From the NCBI GenBank assembly GCA_023146045.1, contig JAGLCW010000114.1, positions 1-35,631 on the forward strand: a stretch of 35,631 nucleotides of DNA. The letters are read 5' to 3'. The DNA is from Caldisericia bacterium. GTDB taxonomy: Bacteria > Caldisericota > Caldisericia > UBA6126. A program made the position numbers and the translations under genes. Under the pieces are notes generated by a model. That model saw nothing but the letters and a program-made list of their open reading frames with translations. It was not told the origin of the DNA and ran no database searches. Positions 24,806 to 33,680 of this stretch are shown piece by piece (the first letter of the stretch is position 1; every line of letters begins with the position of its first letter).

Positions 24806-27343
24806 TTAGGGTAATGTTGGTGTATATAATAATGTTACAGTTTGTGTATTGCTGTTCCAACTTACGTCAAAACCAATGTTTTCTGCAATAAATCTTAAAG
24901 GTAAAAAAGTTCTTCCGTTTTCTATTAATGGTACAACTAATTTGTTGTTTTCGTCTATCAATACAACTTTATCGTTAACAATTGCTTTGGGATTGTTGAT
25001 AAAAAGAACAATTGAGATATTTTCTGAATGTATTACAATTTTATCCTCATCTGGATACCAATTGATAGATGTTTCATTTAAATGATCAACAATTGGAATA
25101 TTTTCAACTAGTTTTCTAATTGGAAGGTATGATCGTTGTTCAAGAATGAATGGAGCACTATCGAGAAATTCTTTTTTTGAATTGATTAGCATTATGTTTG
25201 AACCAATTGAAAAGACTATTTTTGTTGCACATTGAATAATAACAGGAATAGTTACAACTTGATTTGTTTTACAATCTGTTCTAAAAACCAACTCTGATTT
25301 GTAAATGCCAGCCTTAAGATTTGTTGCATCTAGTTCAATCTGAATAATTCTTGTGTGATCATTGAAATTTTCTTCAAGAATCTTAATCCAAGGTTTCTTG
25401 GATAAAACCTTTCCTTTCATACCAACATCACCAGTCACATTCAAAGTGAGTATTTTTTTCATAATGTAACCCACAACAATTGTTTCAGTGATATTAGTAG
25501 GGGTTACAATTAAATGGGGAGGAGGAATATACTGAATATTTACTGGTAGAACAAAATTACCACCATTAGAAGTGATGTTAATATTTCCAATTTTATGGAT
25601 GATGTCAATCTCTTTTTGAAAATAACTTGAGTCTATAAAAAATGGTATCTCAAAATATTCATTGTGTAATACTTTAGAAAAACTTGTTTTAGCTATTCTA
25701 AGCCAAGGAGTTTTTGTTGTTATCGAGCCTTCTAATTCAGATTCACCAATATTAAAAACTGAAAAATTTCTAAATAAACAATCACCAGTAAACAGATTTT
25801 CTGAAAACTCAGAGGGATTGATTTGTATCTTGGGTGGCTTTGGTGGCGATTTATGGCAGATAATTCTATTATCACCTAGAAAGGTTATGTATATGGAATT
25901 ATTGCTTATTGTTAAATATCTTGGATTGTTGTTAAAAATTTCATTGGAAAAGTACTCTTTTTCAATTTTACCAGTGTTAATGTTAATAATTTTTAACTGC
26001 AATTGTCCTGTTGAATTTATTCCAGAGGTGAATACATTTGATTTTGTTAGCGCATATGGTGTTGCATCTGTTCCAAATGAATTAGAACTTGAACCTACTA
26101 TTTGATTCCAAACCCATTCGCCATTGTCCTTGTTAATGCCGTTTATCCCTCCAGAACGATTAAGGAGAACTAGGAAGTCTTCATGAATATATGGTGCACT
26201 TCCCCATCCTACTGGGAGCCTTGATGAAATGTTTGTCCACCTTTCTTTTACGCTGTTTTTATTGAGCATCATATCAACTTTATATGAACTTATCTTTGTC
26301 ATATTGCTGTTTACTTCCGTACGAGCAAAAAAAACATTTTTACCTTCTATTGTGCAAGGTGCGGCAGTGTAACAATCTTTAGATTCGATAGATTTTATTA
26401 CTTCACCAGTTTTTTCATTTAAAAAGTGTATATAGCAAGGAGCAAATTGTTCTACTACTTTTGACTTATATAACTCAGGCGTGCTAGAAAATGTACCACC
26501 TGTAACTGAAAGAAATCTACCATCATGAGATAGTGGTGGAGGACTAATGGCTGGTGGATTTGGAAAACTTCCTTCACCTCCTTTTAGTTCTTTTTGCCAA
26601 CACTTTGAAAGTGGAAAATTAGCAGTTAGTTTTGTTAGTAAGCATTCAGTGCATATGTATGGATGGTCTTTATCTGATCGAATTAGTAGTGTTTTTACGA
26701 AAACAGAATTTTCTGAGCATACAATACTATTGAAGTATCCTTTGATTTGTTTTTTGTCTATCATACTGCCGTTTGAGCAACTGAATGAGTACACGTTAGT
26801 GTAAAAGGATTCGTTTAATCCAAAGTCTTCTGTTTCCCAAGAACCTTTGAAAGTTTCTGCAACAAAAATCTGTTCGGATTCTGAGATTATTGAACAAAAA
26901 GCATTTTCAAACTTACTATCAGGTAACTTTACTTTGAAAATTACTGAATGATCTTTTTCTGAAAGACAAATCAAAGAATGTGAAACAACATCTATGAAAT
27001 AAATGTTTTCGTTATGGATTAGCATCGGATTAGATGACCGATATGGTAACTCAGATTGTTTTAAAGTTTCTACATCTATGTCGGATTCCGAAAATCCACT
27101 TCCCTTGTAATCATGCAATTGAGAAATCCAAAACGCAGAGTGGGTTTTACTAGATGAATGTATAAAAGAACTCGAACTTTCAACAAAATCTAAAGAAGCC
27201 TGAATTATGTGATTCTTGTAAGATAATAAACTAGAAAAAAGACAGAAAGAAATGAATAGAATTGAGAAAAGCTTAAAAAAGTTAATTTTTTCTTTTGTGC
27301 TAAAAAAATGTAACACAGTATGTTGTTTTGTCTTAAAAATCAT
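24806..27343 (-). CDS. Secreted PQQ-like beta-propeller protein with two BACON-like repeats and a C-terminal stalk (copper amine oxidase N-terminal-like) domain
   Basis: N-terminal hydrophobic export signal; propeller-like repeats; paired TKTPWLRIAKTSF / SKKPWIKILEENF modules; PLIENGRTFLPLRFIAENIGFDVSWNSNTQTVTLLY. Confidence 0.72.
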   Translation of the reverse strand: MIFKTKQHTVLHFFSTKEKINFFKLFSILFISFCLFSSLLSYKNHIIQASLDFVESSSSFIHSSSKTHSAFWISQLHDYKGSGFSESDIDVETLKQSELPYRSSNPMLIHNENIYFIDVVSHSLICLSEKDHSVIFKVKLPDSKFENAFCSIISESEQIFVAETFKGSWETEDFGLNESFYTNVYSFSCSNGSMIDKKQIKGYFNSIVCSENSVFVKTLLIRSDKDHPYICTECLLTKLTANFPLSKCWQKELKGGEGSFPNPPAISPPPLSHDGRFLSVTGGTFSSTPELYKSKVVEQFAPCYIHFLNEKTGEVIKSIESKDCYTAAPCTIEGKNVFFARTEVNSNMTKISSYKVDMMLNKNSVKERWTNISSRLPVGWGSAPYIHEDFLVLLNRSGGINGINKDNGEWVWNQIVGSSSNSFGTDATPYALTKSNVFTSGINSTGQLQLKIININTGKIEKEYFSNEIFNNNPRYLTISNNSIYITFLGDNRIICHKSPPKPPKIQINPSEFSENLFTGDCLFRNFSVFNIGESELEGSITTKTPWLRIAKTSFSKVLHNEYFEIPFFIDSSYFQKEIDIIHKIGNINITSNGGNFVLPVNIQYIPPPHLIVTPTNITETIVVGYIMKKILTLNVTGDVGMKGKVLSKKPWIKILEENFNDHTRIIQIELDATNLKAGIYKSELVFRTDCKTNQVVTIPVIIQCATKIVFSIGSNIMLINSKKEFLDSAPFILEQRSYLPIRKLVENIPIVDHLNETSINWYPDEDKIVIHSENISIVLFINNPKAIVNDKVVLIDENNKLVVPLIENGRTFLPLRFIAENIGFDVSWNSNTQTVTLLYTPTLP

Positions 27344-27473: not shown

Positions 27474-30419
27474 CTATGGCTTTGGGTAAGTTAGAGTGAT
27501 TGTTTGAGTTGTTCCGTCCCAACCAACTGCAAATCCAAGACTTTCAGCTACAAATCTAAGTGGGAGGAATGTACGACCAGCAACAATCATTGGTTTAACG
27601 CTTGGGTTATCATCAATTGTAGCGTCTTTTCCATTAATCTTTGCTTTAGGATTGTCTATCCAAAGCTCGATCGTTATATCGTCTTTTTTAATTGTTACTT
27701 TACGTGTTTTACTGTCCCAACCAATATCTCCATCAATGGCTTCGACAACAGGTCTAATAGGTAACACTGTTCTACCTTCATGTACAAAAGGTGCAGCGTC
27801 TAATAGCTCTGGTTCGTCGTTCAGAATGTAAGTCTTTCTTCCAATGACGAATTTCAATACTGTTCTTTTTTCTCTATTTATAGTAATTTTTGTTTCAGCA
27901 ACATTTTCAGATAGATCGGTAGCTTTGACTGTAAAAATGTTTTCACCAAGTTTTAATTTTACGTCATATGAAAAGTTACCTTTTTTATCTAGTGCTACTT
28001 CTTTATCATTTATGGTTACTTTTGCATCTAGTTCTGTGCTACCTTTAATAGTGTAATTGTCTTCATAAATCACTTCAGGAATGTCTTCAATTTTAATGAT
28101 TGGAGGTTCAGTATCGCCTTTTAAAATTGTGAATTTCAAGGATTTTGAATCTTTAATTGTTACTTCTTTATTTTTTAGATTGAACATTTTGATTCTATCA
28201 AATAGAATTTCAACGTCTCCAGTTTCTTTGGCGTGGAATTTCATAACGGCAACCGTTCCTGTGCCAGAAATACCATTTTTACACATTAAGTCAAAGATAA
28301 TTGTCTCATCCATAACATCTGTATCAGATATTTTTCCAGGACCTAGTAATTTACCACCAGTAACAGAGTCAAATGTTATATGTTCAAAAGGAATTGTGAA
28401 ACCAAACTCAATTTTACTAATATCTTCGATTTTTTCAGCATTGATATTTACTGTAAATTCAGAACCAGCTTTAATTTCTTCTGAAGCTTCTAATGTGAAA
28501 ACTGTTTCAGATTCTTTAACTTTACCGTTGTCTGGAGGAACTGCTGTAGAGTCATTCAAAACAACAACAGTGCTGTGAAGACAATCGGTTACATACAGTT
28601 TACCATCATAGTCCATTGTAATAAATGTTAATCCTGGCCACTGCATTTCGGAGGTCCAAATTAAATCACCTTCTGGAGTGAATTTTTGAATACGTCCACC
28701 ATTAGTTTCAGCAACGTATACATTTCCTTCACCATCAACACAAGTGCCTTGTGGACCATTCATTTGCCCTGGTTCTGAACCAGATTCTCCCCATTCAGTG
28801 ATAACATCACCGTCTGGATCCATGCTAACAACTTTGTCACTACCTGTTAATGCGATAAACATATTGTCATCTGCATCACAAGATACTCCTACTGGCCATG
28901 TACCATCTATAGGATAGTTATCTACTTCTTCAGCATATTCATCAAGGATCTCTGTGGTGTCAATAACAGACAAAGAGGCACTTTTTGAGTTAACTACAAG
29001 CAAGTACCCTTCACTATTTACACAAAGTCCTTGTGGATAACTGAAACCTTCGTCAATAATTGTCCATGGTTCGTGATCCGGATCGAATACGTGGATGAGT
29101 CCTGACCGTGTGTCAGAAACATAGATAAAGCCATCTTCATCTAGACATACATCTGTAGGAGAGAAGAATTCTCCTGGATCTGGATCTCTATTTTTAGCAG
29201 CGTGTCCCAAATGTTCAATATCTTCACCCTCAGAATCAAATACTACAACATTATAGTAGTTACTATTACCAACATATATATTTCCATCTTGATCTACTCT
29301 TACACCTTGAGGATTTGAGAGAATGCCTTTTGGTGTATCTTTTGTATAAAGCATACCACTGGAATAAATTGGAGTACCATCTGTTGTACTAACATGTGAA
29401 TCCATGAAGTCATTATTTTTGTTAAAGACCATTATGGTGCTAAGAAGGCCATCAAGAACAAAAGTTTTTTCGTCTTTTATACATGCTCCAGAAGGAAGCA
29501 TGATGTTGTCTTTTTCAATTGTTCTTCCGGATGGTGGAGATGCGACAATTTCAAGAAATTCAAGAAGATCTTTTGGATTAGTTGGAATCTCAAATTTCTT
29601 GACTGAGGATTTTTGACCATTTAATTGTGATACAACAAGGATGTTGTTTTCAATTGACAAGCCAGTTAGTAAACCACCGATATTTTCATCATTAGTACCA
29701 GGTTCAATGCAATCAATGAGATGATTACCATCTTTATCGAAAGCAGCCATTTTGCAGATACCAGAAATGGAACTAGCGGAAATGTATACTATACCTTCTT
29801 TAGTAATTTCAATTTGAGAAGGCCCATACATATCGTCAGGAGAAGGTTTTAGACCAGTGTAATTTGAGAAAGGTCCAATATATTTCCCTTCAGCATCGTA
29901 TTTTAAAACACCCGAAGACACGTCTGTTACTAAAATGCTGCCATCAGGAAGAAAAGCGACGTCAGTAGGGGTTACCATCTCTTCGTCGAAACTCTTTATA
30001 AATTTACCATCTTGAGTCATTACAGAAACCTTACCAATAAAAGAATCTGTAAGGTAAAGGTTTCCTTTAGAGCAAAGGTTGACGGAAGTTAAATACATAA
30101 ATTTACCGTCTTCTTTTCCTATTCCTCCAAAATGAAGTATTGGGACTAAATCGTTGCCAAATACTTCTATTTGTGACTCACCACTGTCTACAACGAAAAT
30201 TTTCCCATCATCCCCAACACAAATACCTAATTGGTACATTGGGCTGAAATAAGAACCATCTTGTGCAGCAACACGGAATGTTCCAATTTCACTGGTTAAA
30301 CCAATAATCTTTTCAATAGATAATGGATCTTTTTCTTCTGCTAAAGTTAATGTTGGTAGAATACTGAAAATACTAATAAAAAGAAAAAAAACAGCAATTA
30401 CTGAAATAAATTTCTTCAT
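27474..30419 (-). CDS. Secreted NHL-repeat propeller protein with cohesin-like, Ig-like and C-terminal stalk domains
   Basis: Signal peptide MKKFISVIAVFFLFISIFSILPTLTLA; repeated PQGxxVDxDGNIYVxxxxxxxVxxF blades; FTLEASEEIKAGSEFTVNINAEKIEDISKIEFGFTIPFEHITFDSVTGGKLL cohesin-like; GRTFLPLRFVAESLGFAVGWDGTTQTITLTY stalk. Confidence 0.8.
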   Translation of the reverse strand: MKKFISVIAVFFLFISIFSILPTLTLAEEKDPLSIEKIIGLTSEIGTFRVAAQDGSYFSPMYQLGICVGDDGKIFVVDSGESQIEVFGNDLVPILHFGGIGKEDGKFMYLTSVNLCSKGNLYLTDSFIGKVSVMTQDGKFIKSFDEEMVTPTDVAFLPDGSILVTDVSSGVLKYDAEGKYIGPFSNYTGLKPSPDDMYGPSQIEITKEGIVYISASSISGICKMAAFDKDGNHLIDCIEPGTNDENIGGLLTGLSIENNILVVSQLNGQKSSVKKFEIPTNPKDLLEFLEIVASPPSGRTIEKDNIMLPSGACIKDEKTFVLDGLLSTIMVFNKNNDFMDSHVSTTDGTPIYSSGMLYTKDTPKGILSNPQGVRVDQDGNIYVGNSNYYNVVVFDSEGEDIEHLGHAAKNRDPDPGEFFSPTDVCLDEDGFIYVSDTRSGLIHVFDPDHEPWTIIDEGFSYPQGLCVNSEGYLLVVNSKSASLSVIDTTEILDEYAEEVDNYPIDGTWPVGVSCDADDNMFIALTGSDKVVSMDPDGDVITEWGESGSEPGQMNGPQGTCVDGEGNVYVAETNGGRIQKFTPEGDLIWTSEMQWPGLTFITMDYDGKLYVTDCLHSTVVVLNDSTAVPPDNGKVKESETVFTLEASEEIKAGSEFTVNINAEKIEDISKIEFGFTIPFEHITFDSVTGGKLLGPGKISDTDVMDETIIFDLMCKNGISGTGTVAVMKFHAKETGDVEILFDRIKMFNLKNKEVTIKDSKSLKFTILKGDTEPPIIKIEDIPEVIYEDNYTIKGSTELDAKVTINDKEVALDKKGNFSYDVKLKLGENIFTVKATDLSENVAETKITINREKRTVLKFVIGRKTYILNDEPELLDAAPFVHEGRTVLPIRPVVEAIDGDIGWDSKTRKVTIKKDDITIELWIDNPKAKINGKDATIDDNPSVKPMIVAGRTFLPLRFVAESLGFAVGWDGTTQTITLTYPKP

Positions 30420-30428
30420 GTGCCCTCC

Positions 30429-33400
30429 CTAGGTACCAGGTGTATAAAAACGAGAGAATATTTTTAAATCATCAATGTTGATGTAGTAGTCTGAATTAAG
30501 GTCAAAATCTGGAATCCACTTTTCATCTTTCCAGTTTAAACCATAATGCTCTACTAAAATTTCAAAATCTAAATCATTAATATGTCCATCATCATTGAAA
30601 TCGCCTAATGTTGCTCCTTCTTTTTCGATTGTAACATCTGGAAGAAGGAATATTGTTTTACGATCATTGTCGTCGATATCTTTAAACGTGTAGTCAATTA
30701 TTTTTATTTCTAATTCATCAACAGATCTTTTTGCTTTAAATTCAAGTTGGGCAATAATGGCGTTACCGTTGCCATTCCAATCTGGATTCCTCGTTCCGTT
30801 GATATAGAATGTTCCTTTTTCAAATTCGCAATCTTTCGATTTTAAATTCTCCTGATCCACAAAATCACCAAAGTACATATTTAATGGAGTAATCTTAGAC
30901 CTAGAAAATTTCAACTCAACCGAGAATTCCTCAATGTTTAGTGGTTCCCTAAAGCCAATATTGATGACAAATTTTTCACCAATATTAATTTTCTTAGGAC
31001 CAGTTATGATAAAAGATGGTGGTTGAGGAATAGATGATCCTTCAATTTTTAGATCTGTGTCTGAAACAATTGTTTCAAATACTTCATTTCTAGAACCATC
31101 CCACATCATACCTTTAATTTTAGCACCAAGATTGAAGTTTCCATTTGGTAAAAATTCGTTTCCTTCAAGACTTTTCCCGTCCCATTTGAAATAGTATTCT
31201 CCGAGAGGAAGATTTTCAAATGATTTTACAATACCCCAATCAATGCCAGTATTATCATAAGCATGAATAGTAATAAGTGTAGCAATGTTGTTGAAGTTAA
31301 TAGTGTCTTGAGGTGATCCAGTATCAATTTCAAGTATACTTCCTGCATTTAAGTTGAAATGCATGTATCCCTCTTCATTTGCTTTTAGGTCTAAAATGTC
31401 TTGACTAAAATAGAAGTCAGATACACTTTTTTTAATTTTTGTTAGAGAATCCTTCCAAAGAATTACTGGTAAATGATGCTGTTCAGATGAGGATAACAAT
31501 GATTTAGCGTCTTTTATATTGACCCATATTGCTCCTTCATATTTGGAATTTATAAAAGCATCATCTTTCAATGTAAAAGTTGCAGTGAAAGTTTTTTTGG
31601 CTCCAGCTCTTATAGTTATTTCTTTTTGGGACAGATCAATTGTTGCAGGTTTTGCAATTGGATCAAAATGTCCATCTTCAATTTGTGTAATAACACTTTC
31701 AAAAAGCTCTGAAGAGAGTGAGACTGTAACATCTTTATCAATTACATTTTGAATTGTGAAAGTTACAGGATCACCAAATTGTTCAATATTTCGCATCACG
31801 TATGATGGAGAAATATCAATTGGACTTGTAATTGCATTGTTTACATCAATTTCTCCTGCTCCTTGTAGGAAGTATGAAGTAAATTGTCCATTAACATTGT
31901 TTTTCAATATTCTAGAAGAAGCCATTATTATTCTTTTCATACGTTTGGTTGACCATTGAGGATGAGCTTCACGGATAAGGGCTACGCATCCAGCAACAAA
32001 TGGAGTTGCCATTGAAGTGCCATCCCAATTTTCATATTTGTTATCTAAAACTGCAGAATTAATTTGTTTGCCTGGGGCACAAATTTCTGGTTTTAATATA
32101 TTATCATCAGCTGAAAAACAAGGTCCAGTTGATGAAAAATCTGAAAAGCTAAGATTTGAGTTAACTGGGAAACTAAGAGTGTAGTTTCCATCTAAATTAG
32201 CTTTAATTGCGTTGGCGGTGTTTCCAGAAACAAATGCACAAGGGATGAATTCATAATCCTCAGGAAGCTCACCATCTCTTGTGTTTACAAGTAAGCCATT
32301 CAAGACGTCTGCATCGTAGTTGTAAATTATACAGCCAATAGCTCCAGCTTCTTTTGCGTTTAGATCTTTACTTTGGAATGTAGTCCCATTGTCTTTTGGA
32401 CCTCTAGAAATAAAAGCAATATTTCCCTTAACTTTGCTTGGAAAATCTTCAGATGTTCCATATCCGCAGTCAATCAATTCGACGTTTGAAATATCTTCCT
32501 CAAATGGAGGGCAAAAAAGTGGTACGTTTGCATTTACGACAATTGGATCTTTGTTATCTGGTTTAAATGAAAATACCTGATGTAACCTGTCGTCGGATGC
32601 AGAAACCTGAAGAGAGAAACTAAACACACCAGGAGTGTCAATTGTCCATGGATTCTTTTTGTGACGTGTACCCGAATTACCAGCTGCTGCAACTACCATG
32701 GTTCCAGCTTTGTCTGCATTGGCTAAAGCATCATAGTAAGGATTCCCTACTGAAACAGATTCAGAAGCTCCACTATGGCCTAAAGAAAGGTTTATTACAT
32801 CGCAACCGTCTTTAACTGACTGATCAGCTGCAGCTATAATGTTGGCAGGATTCGCTCCACCACCCTTTTTTGAAAAGACTTTGTAAACATAAAGGTCACT
32901 TTCTGGAGCAACACCAGTTTTTTCTGCCCAATCAGGGTTTCTTCCTGATGTTATTCCAGCAACGTGTGTGCCGTGTGGTGGCATATTTCCACCATATCCA
33001 GAATCCATACAATCGTTTGTACCGTCAACAAAATCATAACCAGCTTTTACTCTTGAATCTGGTCCAACTCCCTTTGGAGTGAAATCATTGTGTTCGTAAT
33101 CAATACCAGAGTCAATGATACCAACTTTTGTACCTTTACCAGAAAGGTTATTGAATGATTTTCCTTTCAGTTTCCAGGATTCAAATGCGTTGACTGTTTT
33201 ATTCCCAATGATTCGAGTTGCATAGTATTCTTCCATAGCTGGATAGATTCCTATGACTTCAGGAATATCTAACAAATATCTTAGGTTGTATCCTGATATT
33301 TCTATTGCCATGCCGTTGTATACGTTTTGGTATGTGTGTAATAATGTAGTAGGAATTAAAGTAGAAATTGAGTCAAAAACAGATAGCTGTTTTTCTTTTA

Positions 33401-33680
33401 ACTCAGCAGCACGATATGGATCAAGTATTAGTTTTGCTTGATTGTTTATGCTACTAGATTTTAACCGTAATGCGGTTTGATTTTTTTCTGAAAAAGAAAC
33501 TACAGCTTCGTCTTTAAGTTTAATGATAACAATCTGTTTTTCAGAAGAATTCATTACTTGTTCGTAATATTCTAAATCAATTTTACTTTCAGCTGCATGT
33601 GTAGGGATAGCAGATGAAAAAATACTAATGAATAAACTAAGGACAACAACATAAGTGCAACACCATTTAAAATTTCTCAC
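30429..33680 (-). CDS. Secreted S8 subtilisin with I9-like propeptide, PA insert, FlgD-Ig-like, cohesin-like and C-terminal dockerin-like modules
   Basis: GTKVGIIDSGIDYEHNDF (Asp), HGTHVAGI (His), DGTSMATPFVAG (Ser); C-terminus GDFNDDGHINDLDFEILVEHYG ... DFDLNSDYYINIDDLKIFSRFY. Start reassigned to GTG 33680 (AGGAGGATATTGTG) instead of 33782, giving signal peptide (M)RNFKWCCTYVVVLSLFISIFSSAIPTHAA. Confidence 0.9.
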   Translation of the reverse strand: MRNFKWCCTYVVVLSLFISIFSSAIPTHAAESKIDLEYYEQVMNSSEKQIVIIKLKDEAVVSFSEKNQTALRLKSSSINNQAKLILDPYRAAELKEKQLSVFDSISTLIPTTLLHTYQNVYNGMAIEISGYNLRYLLDIPEVIGIYPAMEEYYATRIIGNKTVNAFESWKLKGKSFNNLSGKGTKVGIIDSGIDYEHNDFTPKGVGPDSRVKAGYDFVDGTNDCMDSGYGGNMPPHGTHVAGITSGRNPDWAEKTGVAPESDLYVYKVFSKKGGGANPANIIAAADQSVKDGCDVINLSLGHSGASESVSVGNPYYDALANADKAGTMVVAAAGNSGTRHKKNPWTIDTPGVFSFSLQVSASDDRLHQVFSFKPDNKDPIVVNANVPLFCPPFEEDISNVELIDCGYGTSEDFPSKVKGNIAFISRGPKDNGTTFQSKDLNAKEAGAIGCIIYNYDADVLNGLLVNTRDGELPEDYEFIPCAFVSGNTANAIKANLDGNYTLSFPVNSNLSFSDFSSTGPCFSADDNILKPEICAPGKQINSAVLDNKYENWDGTSMATPFVAGCVALIREAHPQWSTKRMKRIIMASSRILKNNVNGQFTSYFLQGAGEIDVNNAITSPIDISPSYVMRNIEQFGDPVTFTIQNVIDKDVTVSLSSELFESVITQIEDGHFDPIAKPATIDLSQKEITIRAGAKKTFTATFTLKDDAFINSKYEGAIWVNIKDAKSLLSSSEQHHLPVILWKDSLTKIKKSVSDFYFSQDILDLKANEEGYMHFNLNAGSILEIDTGSPQDTINFNNIATLITIHAYDNTGIDWGIVKSFENLPLGEYYFKWDGKSLEGNEFLPNGNFNLGAKIKGMMWDGSRNEVFETIVSDTDLKIEGSSIPQPPSFIITGPKKINIGEKFVINIGFREPLNIEEFSVELKFSRSKITPLNMYFGDFVDQENLKSKDCEFEKGTFYINGTRNPDWNGNGNAIIAQLEFKAKRSVDELEIKIIDYTFKDIDDNDRKTIFLLPDVTIEKEGATLGDFNDDGHINDLDFEILVEHYGLNWKDEKWIPDFDLNSDYYINIDDLKIFSRFYTPGT

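Follow-up and report, generated by a model that had tools for sequence, protein, structure and literature searches.

A secreted subtilisin of Caldisericia with a C-terminal cohesin-fold domain and dockerin, and a candidate docking partner encoded by the next gene

Results

A subtilisin gene and its cohesin-bearing neighbour

The window, a stretch of 35,631 nucleotides from a Caldisericia bacterium, carries a gene run that starts with the subtilisin P0001 and continues with its partner P0002 and with P0003. The features of the three genes are listed in Table 1.

Table 1 Features of the locus. Positions refer to the window, residues to the respective protein
Feature	Position	Strand	Basis or content
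P0001, secreted subtilisin, 1083 aa	30429..33680	minus	signal peptide, S8, PA, Fn3-like, cohesin-like, dockerin
Sec-type signal peptide, about residues 1-29, ...SSAIPTHA-A	33594..33680	minus	read by eye
Peptidase S8 catalytic domain, residues 181-609; triad D190/H236/S556 and N335 present	31854..33140	minus	Pfam
PA domain within the S8 domain, residues 404-492	32205..32471	minus	Pfam
Fn3-like (fn3_5) domain, residues 630-726	31503..31793	minus	Pfam
Cohesin-fold domain of the dyad, about residues 889-1019	30624..31016	minus	AF2, Foldseek, profile, Pfam on homologues
Dockerin, residues 1025-1074, continuing to the C terminus at 1083	30459..30608	minus	Pfam, profiles
Ca-binding loop 1, DFNDDGHINDLD, residues 1027-1038	30567..30602	minus	sequence
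Ca-binding loop 2, DLNSDYYINIDD, residues 1060-1071	30468..30503	minus	sequence
Coupling site TAG-GGAGGGCAC-ATG: protease stop, overlapping Shine-Dalgarno, P0002 start, same frame	30417..30431	minus	
P0002, partner, 981 aa: NHL propeller, cohesin, Ig, Cu_amine_oxidN1 "stalk"	27474..30419	minus	
NHL/beta-propeller region of P0002 (approximate)	28584..30242	minus	
Cohesin of P0002, about residues 637-770	28110..28511	minus	AF2, Foldseek, profile, HMM position
Ig-like domain of P0002 (Glucodextran_B), residues 786-849	27873..28064	minus	Pfam
Cu_amine_oxidN1 stalk domain of P0002	27495..27824	minus	Pfam
P0003, third gene of the run: PQQ-like propeller region, stalk domains at the end	24806-27343	minus	

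P0001: The gene starts with GTG, with AGGAGG upstream. The Pfam scores are 9.5e-54 for Peptidase_S8, 3e-13 for PA, and 6e-8 for fn3_5. An orthologue with 59% identity lies on another Caldisericia contig. As D190, H236, N335, and S556 are all invariant across the orthologues, the enzyme is probably active. An earlier sequence-only reading of this DNA had assigned a FlgD-Ig-like region to the protein. This label finds weak support in a paralogue.

P0002: The cohesin of P0002 was modelled by AlphaFold2 (AF2) with a pLDDT of 96.3, and the top Foldseek match of the model is 2xdh (E 4.8e-11, TM 0.84/0.82). Pfam Cohesin (PF00963) has no match in P0001 or P0002 themselves; several P0002 orthologues do match it. 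Judged by its predicted fold, the domain is a true cohesin. It is the only cohesin of the protein, and P0002 is therefore no multi-enzyme scaffold.

P0003: No cohesin or dockerin match was found with Pfam in this protein. The stalk domain that P0003 has in common with P0002 is strikingly abundant, with 82 Cu_amine_oxidN1 matches in the 1.95 Mb draft genome of P0001 (e.g., at 27495-27824 and 24830-25234), and may be a general surface module of this lineage.

The C terminus of P0001 is a cohesin-dockerin dyad

Taken alone, P0001 gives borderline Pfam matches. Dockerin_1 (PF00404) scores 18 bits (E 0.0034) for residues 1025-1074 with hmmscan, and 24.7 bits in a genome scan in which the dockerin was scored together with its neighbours in frame; the Pfam cut-off is 22.9. 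The related C termini settle the identity. Among 58 aligned homologous C termini, Dockerin_1 matches 55 and Cohesin 33. A profile built from the alignment of these dyads finds cellulosomal dockerins in the PDB at 3e-18 and the Archaeoglobus fulgidus cohesin 2xdh at 2e-7. For the last 204 residues of P0001, AF2 gave a model with a pLDDT of 92.9 and a pTM of 0.82. Foldseek placed 2xdh on top for this model (E 1.3e-8), and all 50 matches listed are cohesins or cohesin-containing scaffoldin chains. Family profiles, PDB profiles, and structure prediction thus agree with the initial proposal of a subtilisin bearing both modules, and it is confirmed that P0001 ends in a cohesin-fold domain followed by a type I-like dockerin. 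We refer to the two domains as the dyad.

The two EF-hand-like loops are present as first described, with all Ca ligands (D1/N3/D5/D12) and a spacing of 33 residues as in type I dockerins. The spacing is 33 in 90 of the 92 dockerins of the group and 34 in the other two. Between the last strand of the cohesin and loop 1 lie only about 4-8 residues, so that the dyad is nearly linkerless. The residues at loop positions 10 and 11 (D-L and I-D) had been taken as a hint that specificity may be unusual. They are ordinary for the group: of the 92 dockerins, just two have S/T at both positions in the first loop and one in the second, and the idea is rejected. Past the dockerin, the proteases of families f4 and f5 (L251, L253, L254, L260, L268) share the conserved terminal motif H-[FY]-G-[ED]-x-[YF]-P-COOH, perhaps a dockerin clasp.

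Dyads, dockerins, and cohesins across the class

The dyad profile matches 45 of the 49 Caldisericia genomes and none of five genomes from the rest of the phylum; the genomes are mostly drafts, and such conservation counts, here and below, are not independent events. The dyad of P0001 is hence no oddity but a recurrent, class-wide C-terminal module, whose dockerin ends 0-9 residues before the C terminus. Two matches from different families (G048:C46:2266-2856 and G006:C108:3873-4463) have identical scores, E-values, and ORF lengths (1034 aa), possibly by cross-binning of one contig. None of the papers searched reports dockerins in Caldiserica.

Dyads are carried by S8 subtilisins, PQQ propeller proteins, and Omp28-like or thioredoxin-like proteins. 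In the f6 dyad subtilisins adjoining the partner (L265:7850-10957, L166:3019-6126), the HGTH motif is not recognisable, and these may be pseudoproteases. Dockerins without a recognised preceding cohesin end M28 peptidases, C25 (gingipain-like) peptidases, and an M6-like protein, with examples in other Caldisericia at L258:3274-5559, L188:861-2627, L186:2448-4448, and L170:8941-10659. Since these proteins bring no recognised cohesin of their own, a partner in trans must be available. No GH domain was found among the dockerin proteins scanned, which were part of all dockerin proteins.

On the cohesin side, PF00963 gives eight matches in the genome of P0001, with at most two in any one protein, and this search recognised no multi-cohesin scaffoldin there. 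The cohesin proteins without dockerin that were examined in this genome have Cu_amine_oxidN1 stalk domains at their end. SLH proteins, considered as a lead to how the system is anchored, are present in all 49 genomes. The one link found to the dyad proteins is in family f5, where the dyad subtilisin has a divergently oriented SLH-domain gene as its close upstream neighbour (G032:C8:78172, G033:C57:33028, G039:C190:9302, G041:C37:9217).

Protease and partner genes are coupled and conserved as a pair

P0002 starts 9 nt after the stop codon of P0001, and its Shine-Dalgarno sequence overlaps this stop (TAGGGAGGGCACATG). In most pairs, a Shine-Dalgarno-like stretch coincides with the protease stop or follows it closely, and the partner usually starts 9-16 nt downstream. 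In 24 of 34 pairs (L251-L286), the two reading frames are in phase and separated by no stop other than that of the protease. Stop-codon read-through, which would fuse protease and partner, was considered for these frames and rejected. Translational coupling explains them better because the stop codon varies (TAG, TAA, or TGA) and the spacing suits a Shine-Dalgarno sequence.

By coordinates, a dyad subtilisin followed by a cohesin carrier on the same strand was found in 30 of 42 genomes, on a list compiled by hand from search outputs. For part of the remaining genomes the loci were read, which added three pairs (G021, G037, G039) and raised the count to at least 33 of 42 genomes in five of six families. 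Among pairs, the partner aligns over its full length. The arrangement varies between lineages. In family f3, the protease and partner genes are not adjacent. Genomes of f5 typically hold one Pfam dockerin, that of the protease, and two Pfam cohesins, the protease's own and its neighbour's. In G018, a C25 peptidase with a C-terminal dockerin lies between the protease and partner genes, so that two dockerin peptidases precede one cohesin carrier. In clusters of f6, up to three dyad subtilisins surround one cohesin carrier.

Conservation of the two cohesins and mirror-tree tests

The dockerin could meet either the cohesin fused to it or that of the partner. In four sets, the mean identities of dockerin and fused cohesin are 89/75, 67/36, 56/31, and 56/48%, and those of the partner cohesin in the same sets are 80, 49, 29, and 50%, so that the latter is itself moderately conserved. 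The faster divergence of the fused cohesin argues mildly against it as the conserved receptor, with the limit that the Ca ligands alone also constrain the dockerin.

Mirror-tree analysis gave no reliable support for either dockerin pairing. Between dockerin and partner cohesin there was no signal (partial correlation r 0.06, p 0.20; corrected r -0.16), and a weak signal between dockerin and fused cohesin was gone after saturation correction. The strong correlation between the fused and the partner cohesin fell from r 0.65 to r 0.08 upon the same correction and was discarded as a probable artefact. The partner assignment therefore rests on gene linkage and genome content rather than on covariation.

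Discussion

Proposed docking of the protease on its neighbour

For a protease with both modules, two outcomes had been put forward, docking on a neighbouring protein and self-assembly into chains. Docking on the neighbour is the best reading because the coupled P0002 has a cohesin of its own and the gene pair persists across the class. We give somewhat better than even chances to a model in which the dockerin of P0001 docks in trans on the cohesin of P0002 and thereby tethers the protease to a propeller- and stalk-bearing protein. The dockerin would plug, in a Ca2+-dependent manner, into the cohesin of the co-translated P0002 and perhaps also into further proteins with cohesin and stalk. The protease, and in relatives also C25 and M28 peptidases, would thereby be held on a surface or matrix protein, which the stalk domains may anchor, and could serve peptide nutrition. 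The outcome would be a small peptidase counterpart of the cellulosome, built on single-cohesin carriers and not on a multi-cohesin scaffoldin. The fused cohesin before the dockerin would most likely act as a rigid X-module-like platform, or else as a secondary acceptor. In this way, Caldisericia probably attach proteases to surface proteins, much as cellulases are mounted in other bacteria. Against this model stand the missing mirror-tree signal between dockerin and partner cohesin, the moderate conservation of the latter, and the separation of the two genes in f3.

An unlikely alternative is that the two modules do not recognise each other and serve solely as structural caps or sorting tags stabilised by Ca2+. 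Dyads do end very different proteins, loop positions 10 and 11 are highly variable, and the co-evolution signal is absent from the mirror-tree analysis. However, without recognition it would be difficult to account for a cohesin gene that directly and conservedly follows the dockerin gene, and archaeal non-cellulosomal pairs do bind according to PMC9012536.

Chain formation would have each dockerin bind the fused cohesin of a further protease, so that proteases and other dyad proteins polymerise and the cohesin-stalk protein terminates or anchors the chain. It is possible but unsupported, and we consider it improbable. AF2 and Foldseek show the fused domain to be a real cohesin in fold, so short a linker would keep both faces free, and the f6 clusters would supply several dyad subtilisins per carrier. 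Yet in all four sets the dockerin is better conserved than the fused cohesin, Pfam Cohesin recognises it in little more than half of the dyads (33/58), and the weak mirror-tree signal did not survive correction. Equally doubtful in our view is a "proteolysome" that would combine docking and chains: the class-specific dyad would be a general tag by which peptidases and propeller proteins dock on cohesin-stalk carriers and chain via the fused cohesin into a branching surface assembly without a multi-cohesin scaffoldin.

Least probable is an intramolecular lock, with the dockerin seated on its own cohesin's binding face and both domains folded into one structural or sorting unit: the confident joint model of both domains and the position at the extreme C terminus would suit it, but the joining residues are probably too few to reach the canonical face, and dockerins occur also without a recognised cohesin before them.

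Docking on P0002, the reading that we prefer, suggests that a class of anaerobes dominated by uncultivated members relies on dockerin-cohesin protease docking with the cognate cohesin encoded in the next gene. The role of scattered dockerins and cohesins outside cellulosomes is a long-open question, for which the gene pair offers a small and testable non-cellulosomal case. If binding holds true, new orthogonal Ca2+-dependent pairs would become available.

Comparison with known systems

Clostridial cellulosome: The dockerin and cohesin folds are common to both systems. X-module-dockerin dyads of the clostridial cellulosome are a structural analogue of the dyad, and adaptor scaffoldins carry both modules. 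In contrast to the cellulosome, the Caldisericia cargo examined consists of peptidases, propellers, and Omp28/thioredoxin-like proteins, and no scaffoldin with several cohesins was recognised in the genome of P0001.

Non-cellulosomal pairs: Single cohesins and scattered dockerins are likewise known from A. fulgidus (2xdh, the closest solved fold of both the dyad and the P0002 cohesin), ANME archaea (PMC9012536), and C. perfringens toxins. In contrast to these examples, the Caldisericia modules form a set fixed within a single class, where the C-terminal dyad recurs and the gene pair is coupled. Mucinolysomes (PMC12997984) and ANME archaea (PMC9012536) have extended the cohesin-dockerin paradigm.

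Ca. Stygibacter: This member of the Cloacimonadota has a cellulosome-like set with dockerin S8 and C25 peptidases (PMC8542988). Like Caldisericia, it has C-terminal dockerins on secreted peptidases, there of the S8/S53 and C25 (gingipain-like) types. It differs in having dockerin glycosidases and a scaffoldin of 3,755 aa, in which CBMs accompany tandem cohesins (PMC8542988), whereas the Caldisericia carriers seen hold one or two cohesins.

Planctosome: In freshwater Planctomycetes (Nemodlikiaceae), a hypothetical cohesin-dockerin complex that degrades polypeptides was proposed (Andrei et al. 2019; PMC6461901). There, peptidases would likewise be docked to a cohesin-bearing protein, and an adaptor has both a dockerin and a cohesin; as in planctosome-type sets, dockerin peptidases (S8, C25, and M28 in the class) and a cohesin carrier occur together in one genome in Caldisericia. 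The planctosome has M12B and M14 peptidases, an LTD anchor, and an HYR adaptor (PMC6461901), whereas Caldisericia use S8 (also C25 and M28) peptidases, the dyad is fused to the enzyme, and the NHL/cohesin/stalk partner is encoded by the next gene. Cohesin-dockerin peptidase complexes have thus been proposed earlier; what sets Caldisericia apart is the class-wide dyad on the enzyme together with its translationally coupled single-cohesin partner.
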